A stretch of DNA of 64,000 bases, taken from positions 248,001 to 312,000 of the forward strand of contig CP012158.1 of NCBI GenBank assembly GCA_001189275.1, given 5' to 3'. Position 1 is the first letter of the stretch; the number at the start of each line of letters is the position of its first letter. Below, piece by piece: positions 5,732 to 42,460 of this stretch. The position numbers and the translations under genes are program-made. The DNA is from Pyrobaculum sp. WP30. GTDB taxonomy: Archaea; Thermoproteota; Thermoprotei; Thermoproteales; Thermoproteaceae. The notes under the pieces are model-generated. The model did not search any database. It saw only the letters and a program-made list of their open reading frames with translations, and had not been told where the DNA came from.

Positions 5732-5806
5732 AACCCGGCACATTTTTCTCCCGGCAGGATCAGCCCCGGAGTCGGCCCGGCGGGCCGCCCATGAGAGGGG
5801 CGCCGG

Positions 5807-6145
5807 CTAAAACCTCCTCTTATTTTTCTCGAGCTTCTGGAAGTAGGCCTTCTCCAAGTCAACGCCGAGGAGCCCGGCGATGGTCAGAAGATATATGAAT
5901 ACGTCTGTGACCTCCTCCACCAGTTGCTCCCGCACATCTTCAAGCCTCACGTCGCCTCTTCCGTACACCACGCCCCTCACCACCTTCTTCACCAAGTTAG
6001 CCGCCTCCCCCACCTCCCCCGCCAAGGCGTTGGTTAAATACTCCAGCCTGAGGGCGAGGTCACGACCGTCTCGTATCTCCCAAAACTGGGGAAACTTCTC
6101 CCGCGAAAACGCTATCTGCATCTCCACAAGCCTGTTGAGATCCAC
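5807..6145 (-). CDS. MazG-like nucleotide pyrophosphohydrolase
   Basis: A 112-residue all-alpha NTP pyrophosphohydrolase. The sequence contains EYLTNALAGEVGEAANLVKK followed by EEVTDVFIYLLTIAGLLGVD, the ExxE...ExxD metal-binding arrangement of MazG/dUTPase-type enzymes. The likely role is hydrolysis of non-canonical or surplus NTPs. It is short, a single domain. A 75 bp spacer containing the GC palindrome ggcccggcgggcc separates its end from the preceding convergent gene. Confidence 0.85.
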   Translation of the reverse strand: MDLNRLVEMQIAFSREKFPQFWEIRDGRDLALRLEYLTNALAGEVGEAANLVKKVVRGVVYGRGDVRLEDVREQLVEEVTDVFIYLLTIAGLLGVDLEKAYFQKLEKNKRRF

Positions 6146-6186
6146 ACCTCAACAACTGCGTGTATTATAAAAGAAACGATGAAAAC

Positions 6187-6379
6187 CACGCCCTTTAAGG
6201 CGGGGATGGATGTTTTAAAGGCATGAGTTCTGCATCTAAGCCCACTGTCGTGGGCGTATGACCGACGGTGCTGGCCCGGGTAGCCCCATGACTACGGCCA
6301 GAGGGGCCGCTGAAGGCCGGCCGGGGGCGCCTATGAACCGCCCAAGGGGCGGGAAGCCCCAGTGCGGGGTGGAGGTCAG
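6187..6379 (+). repeat. Solo IS605/TnpB-end element, omega-RNA-like (copy A)
   Basis: A non-coding block of ~193 bp between two genes. It opens with a small hairpin (CGCC 6189-6192 / GGCG 6199-6202) and closes with a hairpin (GCCCC 6356-6360 / GGGG 6366-6369) followed by ggaggtcag. It is clearly related to copy B at 29549-29712: both share the core cggtgctggcccggg (here 6266-6280), gggcgcct and the terminal ggaggtcag. Archaeal IS605-group tnpB elements commonly end like this, and the right end encodes the omega-RNA guiding TnpB. No tnpB is attached, so I infer a MITE-like remnant or stand-alone omega-RNA. The exact borders are uncertain. Confidence 0.6.
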
Positions 6380-6430
6380 AAAAGGCTAATGGCCACATAT
6401 TCGTGTAACAGGTTTGCTTGGGTGCGTTTG

Positions 6431-28616: not shown

Positions 28617-29586
28617 GCGGAACCCCTTCACGGGGGAACGCGTCCTAGTCTCGCCGCACCGCCTCTCGAGGCCCTGGCAACCAGAGGGCTTCTGCCCCTT
28701 CTGCCCAGGAGGCCCCGAGACAGGCCAGGGGTGGGAGTTACTTCTGCTCCCCAACCGCTACCCAGTGGTGACGAGGAACCCCCCAACCCCCACGCAGGAG
28801 GAGCTCTTCCAGGCCGAGGAGGCCTACGGACAGGCATACGTGTTGGTGGAGACGCCGCAACACGACTTAGACGACCTAAGCGACCTGCCGCCAAGCCAGA
28901 TAGAAAAGGTGCTGAGGCTGGTGATGAAGGCTCAGAAAGAGGCCGAGGAGGACCCCAAAGCGCTCTACTTCCTCTTCTTTAGAAACAAGGGGAAGGAAAT
29001 CGGGGTCTCCCTGACGCATCCCCACTCCCAGATATACATCCTCCCCGTCGTGCCTCCACGCGTCGAGACGGAGCTAAGGGCCTCAGAGGAGTGGTATAGA
29101 CAGAGGGGAACTTGTCTACACTGCCTAATCACAACGCGAGAAGAGAAACGCATCGTCTACCAAAACGCCAGCTGGAAAAGCTTCGTGCCCTACTACGCCA
29201 GGTGGCCCCACGAGGTACACATATACCCCAAGAGACACGTCAGCCACTTCACAGCCCTCAGAGAAGACGAAGTCAGAGACCTCGCCGACATGCTGAGAAA
29301 AACCCTATGCGCCTTCAAGACAGCATTAGGCAAACCCATGCCCTACATAATGGTGCTACACCAAGCCCCCCTGAGGGTGGAAACCCCCCACTACCACCTC
29401 CACTTCGAGATATATGGGATGTATAGACCTGATGGGAAGCTTAAATACGCCGCCGGAGCAGAGCTAGGCGCCTCGCTATACACGCTAGACACAACGCCCG
29501 AGGAAACCGCAGAAAGGCTGAGGAAAGCGCTCGCCAACTGCGTTACAAATCCCCGCCCATTTAGGGCGGGGATGGGAAAAGTCTAA
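28606..29586 (+). CDS. galT: Galactose-1-phosphate uridylyltransferase
   Basis: A 326-residue HIT-superfamily enzyme. It has a CPFCPGG zinc-type pair near residue 30, the HCLI second site, NRYPVVTRNP, and the active-site motif SLTHPHSQIY (HPH, with catalytic His). It exchanges UMP between UDP-glucose and galactose-1-phosphate. It is coupled to galK. The last ~12 codons (NPRPFRAGMGKV) are not native-looking: they are encoded by the left hairpin of the omega-RNA-like element at 29549, so the original C-terminus was replaced or extended by an insertion. Confidence 0.9.
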   Translation: MEIRRNPFTGERVLVSPHRLSRPWQPEGFCPFCPGGPETGQGWELLLLPNRYPVVTRNPPTPTQEELFQAEEAYGQAYVLVETPQHDLDDLSDLPPSQIEKVLRLVMKAQKEAEEDPKALYFLFFRNKGKEIGVSLTHPHSQIYILPVVPPRVETELRASEEWYRQRGTCLHCLITTREEKRIVYQNASWKSFVPYYARWPHEVHIYPKRHVSHFTALREDEVRDLADMLRKTLCAFKTALGKPMPYIMVLHQAPLRVETPHYHLHFEIYGMYRPDGKLKYAAGAELGASLYTLDTTPEETAERLRKALANCVTNPRPFRAGMGKV

Positions 29587-29712
29587 AATGTGGGTGTTGC
29601 TTATCCTAGGCCCGCGGTTGCGGGCGGATGGCCCGCGGTGCTGGCCCGGGCGAGGGCGCCTGTGAGTTGCCCTGGAGGGAACCCCTGCCCCTTAGGGCGG
29701 GGAGGAGGTCAG
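29549..29712 (+). repeat. Solo IS605/TnpB-end element, omega-RNA-like (copy B)
   Basis: About 164 bp. The left hairpin is CCCCGCCC (29551-29558) / GGGCGGGG (29564-29571). Inner parts are the cggtgctggcccggg core (29636-29650) and gggcgcct. The right hairpin is CCCCTGCCC / GGGCGGGG (29682-29702), then aggaggtcag. Layout and sequence match copy A (6187), with a ~37 bp deletion after the core. No tnpB is present. The left end supplies the galT stop and last codons, and the right end reaches the rpl30 stop codon (29709-29711). It may be transcribed with galKT and yield a stand-alone omega-RNA-like transcript whose guide would be the DNA after 29712. Confidence 0.62.
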
Positions 29713-30245
29713 AGCATCCGGCGGATCAAGTCGTTAATAAGCGGACCCCTGTAGCCTAAGTCGCCGCCGACAGAGAAGTGGAGCTTGACGCTGTTTAGCC
29801 CGCCCCGAGGCGGATGTAGCCTGAAGAACGGCTTGAGATACGGTATGCAGGGCGGTCTCTGGCCGTCCTTAAACCTCGCCCTTTTGCCGCACGAAAGGCG
29901 GTTTATCTCCCCCGCGACATATGCCAAGGCCACCTCCTCAAACGACTGCCACCCCCACTTCTGGAGATACTCAAGCGTCAGCGGCTTGTCGCCCGCGATT
30001 CTCCCCCTCCTCCTCAACACCTCCGCGAGGGTGTCGGCGTCTATCTCGCCCCAGGTAATCCAGTCGTTTGCCCTTTCGATCATGCCCATGACGTCGGGGG
30101 TGCCGGGGACCACCACCATGGTGAACTTCCTCCTTAGCCGCAGAAGATTCAAGGCGGTTGCTATGTCCCTGGGGGTTGTGGGTATGCCCCTAATCCTTAT
30201 GACGGCGTAGCGCGGATAGATCATCCTCTGCACTGCCTCCGTCAT
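29709..30245 (-). CDS. rpl30: Ribosomal protein L30 (uL30), archaeal type
   Basis: A 178-residue archaeal/eukaryotic-type L30, longer than bacterial L30. Typical stretches are [56 protein letters not shown], and a C-terminal [14 protein letters not shown]. It follows rps5 with a 4 bp overlap, the S5-L30 order of archaeal spc-type operons, although the rest of that operon is absent here and rnhB precedes it. Its stop codon falls within the right end of the omega-RNA-like element. Confidence 0.93.
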
Positions 30246-42387: not shown

Positions 42388-42460
42388 AGGTGTAGATGCT
42401 GGGCTCGACGGCCGTGTCTGCGGCAGAATGAAGGGCCCGCCCGCGGCCGAGTCTACACCT
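42388..42460 (+). ncRNA. Candidate structured RNA
   Basis: The tract AGGTGTAGA (42388-42396) pairs perfectly with TCTACACCT (42452-42460). Inside it, CTCG(AC)GGCCG at 42404-42414 pairs with CGGCCGAG at 42444-42451, around a ~30-nt G/C-rich loop. The TATA-like cttttataaatg (42372-42383) lies just upstream, at the distance that would start a transcript near 42400. An ACA occurs near the 3' end (42455-42457), as in archaeal H/ACA guide RNAs. It could also be a terminator-like hairpin of the convergent gene. Strand is assumed from the promoter. Confidence 0.35.

Follow-up and report, generated by a model that had tools for sequence, protein, structure and literature searches.

Protein-free derivatives of IS605 elements are already known. 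In Haloquadratum and Halanaerobium they have been described as PATEs, or palindrome-associated transposable elements, which carry subterminal palindromes, make no target duplication and occur as many diverged copies (PMC3119063, PMC7290912). The Halanaerobium PATE keeps 28 nt of the left end, 58 nt of the tnpB end and the right end in full (PMC3119063, PMC7290912), and hairpin-only forms with fused ends also occur (PMC3119063). The IS1341-type tnpB elements carry at their right end an omega-RNA, or sotRNA (RF02656, RF02657), which overlaps the 3′ end of tnpB and takes its guide from the flank (PMC12558985). In ISDra2, positions -6 to -2 of this RNA form a pseudoknot with an upstream segment and the guide again comes from the flank (PMC8612924, PMC10097598). 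In that element, insertion and cleavage share one target motif, and cleavage of the element-free allele has been proposed to favour element-bearing copies (PMC8612924). The TTAC target is known from IS608 (PMC8612924).

The window analysed here is a 64,000-nucleotide stretch of Pyrobaculum sp. WP30 that contains two related non-coding blocks, elements A and B, which we call solos. Stand-alone omega-RNAs of IscB with no adjacent nuclease gene were reportedly described in Ktedonobacter by Altae-Tran in 2021; the solos likewise have no nuclease gene beside them, but are related to TnpB rather than IscB. They share with PATEs their protein-free, IS605-derived make-up, subterminal palindromes, lack of target duplication, many diverged copies and hairpin-only forms. 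However, the solo interior is a conserved omega-RNA with its own putative promoter and a solo-specific 5′ hairpin, present in several species, while the portions of the PATE reports consulted (PMC3119063, PMC7290912) describe no guide-RNA unit. As in IS1341-type elements, the omega-RNA is predicted at the right end with its guide in the flank, but tnpB is lacking. The possible pseudoknot of -6 to -2, the predicted flank-derived guide and a target motif shared by insertion and predicted cleavage recall ISDra2, although the solo RNA is encoded apart from TnpB, the target is TTAC (as in IS608) rather than TTGAT, and the pseudoknot partner lies at -117 to -121 in A versus -102 to -106 in ISDra2 (PMC10097598).

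We consider it likely, at about two chances in three, that element A is a PATE-like non-autonomous IS200/IS605 (IS1341-type) element whose stand-alone omega-RNA serves a resident TnpB in trans. At the level of sequence, the comparisons below establish its family membership, the homology of its RNA to tnpB omega-RNAs, TTAC-specific insertion without duplication, and the presence of intact TnpB genes at other places in the genome. The preliminary description had offered a MITE-like family and stand-alone omega-RNAs as alternatives, and both descriptions fit: the family is mobile, of PATE type, and carries a stand-alone omega-RNA. We did not find in the open-licence literature a multi-copy lineage that combines a promoter-like signal with guide-RNA architecture in a family without detectable TnpA.

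Anatomy of elements A and B

The features of the two elements are as follows.

6174..6379, plus strand: element A, a solo omega-RNA element of about 206 bp (eight-solo alignment, blastn family); left boundary approximate, TTAC not preserved
6187..6209, plus strand: left-end hairpin CACGCCCTTTAAGGCGGGGATGG of A, with homologues at the left ends of tnpB elements
6213..6219, plus strand: TATA-like box TTTTAAA, putative omega-RNA promoter of A (A/T run in 8 of 9 solos)
6240..6255, plus strand: solo-specific 5′ hairpin GCCCAC/GTGGGC of A, near the predicted transcription start (compensatory changes, helix 1)
6259..6263, plus strand: TGACC, 5′ strand of the pseudoknot in A (-121 to -117), pairing with GGTCA at 6374-6378 (paired in 9 of 9 copies)
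6266..6378, plus strand: omega-RNA scaffold core of A, common to tnpB-associated omega-RNAs (alignments, RNA-model matches at tnpB loci)
6283..6307, plus strand: GCCCC/GGGGC helix of A, 100% of cells paired in the alignment
6371..6379, plus strand: right end GGAGGTCAG of A, carrying GGTCA, the 3′ strand of the pseudoknot (-6 to -2)
6380..6399, plus strand: predicted guide aaaaggctaatggccacata of A in flanking DNA, length assumed by analogy with ISDra2 (PMC10097598)
29543..29546, plus strand: TTAC target and predicted TAM directly left of B; the orthologous site in genome G003 has no element
29547..29712, plus strand: element B, a shorter solo without the central pseudoknot domain (41 alignment columns)
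29582..29589, plus strand: TATA-like box TCTAAAAT of B
29709..29711, minus strand: TGA at the end of B, stop codon of the right-hand minus-strand gene (...RRML stop)
29713..29732, plus strand: predicted guide of B, antisense to the final codons of the gene next to it

A block at 6187-6379, bounded by GC hairpins, ending in GGAGGTCAG and akin to a block at 29549, had been described beforehand. The hairpins at both ends and the terminal motif are present, and the kinship is borne out by an alignment of A and B over their full length with 73% mean column identity, a 41-column gap in B, and both the core CGGTGCTGGCCCGGG and the terminal GGAGGTCAG in common. Of the limits given there, the right end at 6379 stands, but A most likely starts near 6174, upstream of the hairpin, and B spans 29547-29712. 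Within A, the helix at 6283-6307 crosses a second one (CGGCC 6295-6299 with GGCCG 6315-6319), creating an internal pseudoknot. Element A is more eroded than most solos, with its TTAC context lost and its terminal hairpin shifted, and keeps 28 of 34 pairs, including a compensatory A-U in helix 1. A alone folds no better than its shuffles (z -1.04); the support for structure comes from the alignment. Element B keeps 22 of 22 remaining pairs despite the missing central domain, and its folding z against shuffles is -2.28.

The block could also be a host non-coding RNA, repeated by chance and unrelated to transposons. Pyrobaculum has many small RNAs, one of which, the H/ACA-type PyrR209, lies nearby at 5753-5818, but this origin is scarcely credible given the homology of the block to tnpB 3′ ends, its family's precise insertion sites and the absence of an Rfam match, and it is contradicted by the exact empty sites described below. 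A match to a known non-transposon RNA family, which the preliminary description had set as a refuting outcome, did not emerge: Rfam gave nothing above chance at A at gathering or relaxed thresholds, and its sot families (RF02656, RF02657) did not match the solo. The H/ACA-type RNAs that Rfam does place in the window are PyrR209 and, at 42400-42457, PyrR210.

Copies, insertion sites and guides

The genome, a single 1.99 Mb contig, holds eight near-complete copies without tnpB versus four tnpB elements with the same ends, which supplies the genome-wide count proposed earlier. A blastn search of the whole genome with A returned 11 further clear copies (E 1e-42 to 1e-7), well past what chance would give. 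Seven other near-complete solos lie at C1:1700696, 761341, 1251016 (minus strand), 984418, 1334689, 1880698 and, as B, at 277547, and four partial matches correspond to the 3′ ends of tnpB genes. Close relatives near tnpB, whose absence was the other refuting outcome set beforehand, are found at tnpB 3′ ends in this genome, and in related genomes as well. Two further solo copies are clearly decayed. At least three copies (L013, L117, L120) are reduced to hairpins of about 48 bp, and L118 is a more diverged example; in each of these the hairpin of the left end runs straight into the right end. The window itself had been said to lack tnpB, and all five matches to PF07282 in the genome indeed fall outside 248001-312000. 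An exact-motif scan of genome contigs, from which near records were possibly left out, gave only scattered, chance-like bacterial matches, and the viral contigs searched held no match to the family.

The resemblance of the ends to those of IS605-group tnpB elements, noted at the outset, holds in alignment with the four tnpB elements. Both kinds of element begin with TTAC-AAATAATGGAAAGCC followed by the hairpin TCGCCCTTTAGGGCGGGG, and both end in GGAGGTCAG, which is identical across the eight solos of this genome; the subterminal hairpins at both ends are likewise shared with the coding relatives. Empty sites in related genomes show where such ends are inserted. In G008, TTTTAC|GGCTTTCTCC (also read TTTTAC|GGCTTTCTCCACC) stands at the site of solo L005 and ATTAC|CCGCTAGG at that of tnpB element L027, with TTAC joined directly to the guide in each case. 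The orthologous site of B in G003, TTAC|AACATCCGG, also has no element, and is a looser empty site than the two in G008. Insertion 3′ of TTAC without target duplication is thus seen at two exact sites and one looser one, support that covers L005, L027 and B rather than A itself, whose orthologous intergenic region differs in relatives. Judged from these junctions, the mode of insertion is that of IS200/IS605 elements. Solo L005 (C1:984418) interrupts a reading frame, MLVIDASALAALLMPE..., that is continuous in G008 and looks like a VapC-type PIN protein.

The guides bear on a regulatory alternative, in which solo omega-RNAs have been domesticated and are kept to direct TnpB to host genes, as with TldR. 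Element A lies about 30 bp upstream of a MazG-like gene, and in several copies the guide runs antisense to the 3′ end of a host gene. We regard this reading as very improbable, however, since the D/E/D motifs are intact in the four full-length TnpBs, with no nuclease-dead homologue among them, the solos are missing at those orthologous sites that could be read, and no convincing second guide target was found in the genome. Here, the guide of A matches at full length only at its own place, and the guides in general gave only self matches and short, chance-like ones.

Some insertions also touch stop codons. The CTGACC end of L004, L007, L009, B and L013 carries an in-frame TGA where orthologues have their stop codon, or close by, and 5 of about 18 element ends give TGA where orthologues have a GTAA-type stop. 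Orthologues of the gene to the right of B end ATG TTG TAA or TAG at the same codon. Such sites exceed only the random TTAC expectation (P 0.004, with rough gene calls), and a preference for stop codons was rejected, as there is no excess over neutral TTAC sites (P 0.63, again with rough gene calls).

Structure and ancestry of the omega-RNA

Several genomes of the genus have tnpB loci whose omega-RNAs align with the 3′ part of the solos. A covariance model recovers the solos and the tnpB-associated omega-RNAs alike, including matches in a second genus. Homology of the scaffold to the 3′ end of tnpB loci appears in alignments, trees and the RNA model. A structure with crossing helices pairs 90.8% of cells versus at most 53.5% when slid, a figure that leans in its favour because the structure was drawn by hand on the same sequences. 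In 500 shuffles its covariation score was reached once, and the helices hold compensatory changes, although covariation is modest, with only 9 sequences and GC-rich helices. In 9 of 9 copies, GGUCA (-6 to -2) can pair with UGACC to form a 3′-terminal pseudoknot, whose mostly invariant pairs lend it little covariation support. The layout of the DNA fits an RNA that ends at the right end and continues into the flank as guide.

Ahead of this scaffold, 8 of 9 solos carry a TATA-like A/T run of at least 6 between the left hairpin and the core (chance about 1e-9 on the window background), some 20-25 nt ahead of the 5′ hairpin. At the same place the tnpB elements have the tnpB leader and then the gene, without the solo TATA-like box and 5′ hairpin.

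In the first tree, one branch splits the solos from the tnpB-associated omega-RNAs (94/93; 96% of bootstrap trees). In a larger tree, which adds A, the decayed copies, a solo of G012 and sequences of the other genus, the changes needed by the solo label rise from 1 to 2, versus 9.1 when shuffled; across trees the label needs 1-2 changes versus 6.8-9.1. The tnpB omega-RNAs of this genome, G008 and G012 group in a clade of their own (97/98), which means that the solos did not arise as fresh deletions of the present tnpB copies. A different coding constraint in the tnpB copies could exaggerate the split.

These comparisons speak to the possibility that the solos are passive PATEs, relics of tnpB elements after internal deletion, moved in trans through their ends and carrying omega-RNA sequence without a role. 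Core-deleted IS605 elements and PATEs are known (PMC3119063, PMC7290912), and the hairpin-only copies and decayed solos found here would suit such an origin. We nevertheless think it rather unlikely, since the solos are not nested among tnpB copies of the same genome, share before their 5′ hairpin a TATA-like box that is absent from tnpB elements, and keep their helices with compensatory changes.

Candidate partner TnpB proteins and a possible route to persistence

The four TnpBs of about 490-520 aa keep AFDVNEN, TEELGK/TEELSK and DRDxxAVLN (RuvC D194, E309 and D398), the catalytic residues having been matched by motif rather than superposition. One of the tnpB genes lies at about C1:1763053-1764591. 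Because phmmer of TnpB against the PDB gave no match, the fold was searched instead. The TnpB model (pLDDT 68.7, moderately confident) matches Cas12f and TnpB structures, among them ISDra2 TnpB (8h1j, 3.5e-9). Neither this genome nor 19 genomes of the family gave a match to PF01797, the Pfam model for the Y1 (HUH) transposase TnpA and the only model used, whereas control genomes did; a diverged or external enzyme is possible. As tnpB-only IS1341-type elements of the superfamily are without TnpA by definition, this result limits the claim of movement, not that of membership.

In the stand-alone omega-RNA reading, the solo would form a complete unit of left hairpin, TATA-like box, 5′ hairpin, pseudoknotted scaffold, right end and flank-derived guide. 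The omega-RNA may be transcribed from the solo's own promoter and loaded in trans by the resident TnpBs, and the loaded TnpB would cut the element-free allele at TTAC plus guide. Because the guide is the DNA to the right of the element, that allele would be the only good target, and the exact empty sites in G008 show that element-free alleles exist in a related species. The cut might be repaired by copying the element back, or the element-free DNA lost, and in either case the element would persist. Mobilisation would probably be due to a transposase encoded outside the solos. More tentatively, the lineage may be long-lived, its guide-RNA genes hijacking resident TnpB for retention, and may have spread in an archaeal family without detectable TnpA, its persistence or spread being supported by some other enzyme, possibly through breakage induced by TnpB and its repair. 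If the main reading holds, an omega-RNA would be able to leave tnpB behind and propagate as a guide-only selfish element, comparable to a CRISPR RNA, which is encoded apart from its effector. The movement and persistence of tnpB-only and guide-only elements would then become testable in Thermoproteaceae, where no Y1 enzyme is detected, and the solos would offer naturally occurring trans guides for one archaeal TnpB group.

Other TnpB-like genes were also observed. A fifth tnpB-type element (L116, C1:966478 onward) has a run of about 14 G near the start of its coding sequence, possibly a frameshift or slippage site. The relative G004 has unusually many tnpB genes and fragments, with 57 PF07282 matches. 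A short TnpB-like reading frame of about 245-278 aa with a Cas12f1-like TNB domain occurs in nearly every genome of the genus (in this one at L031 1021-1770, C1:198484), a distribution that suggests a domesticated derivative. The middle one of its RuvC motifs appears altered.
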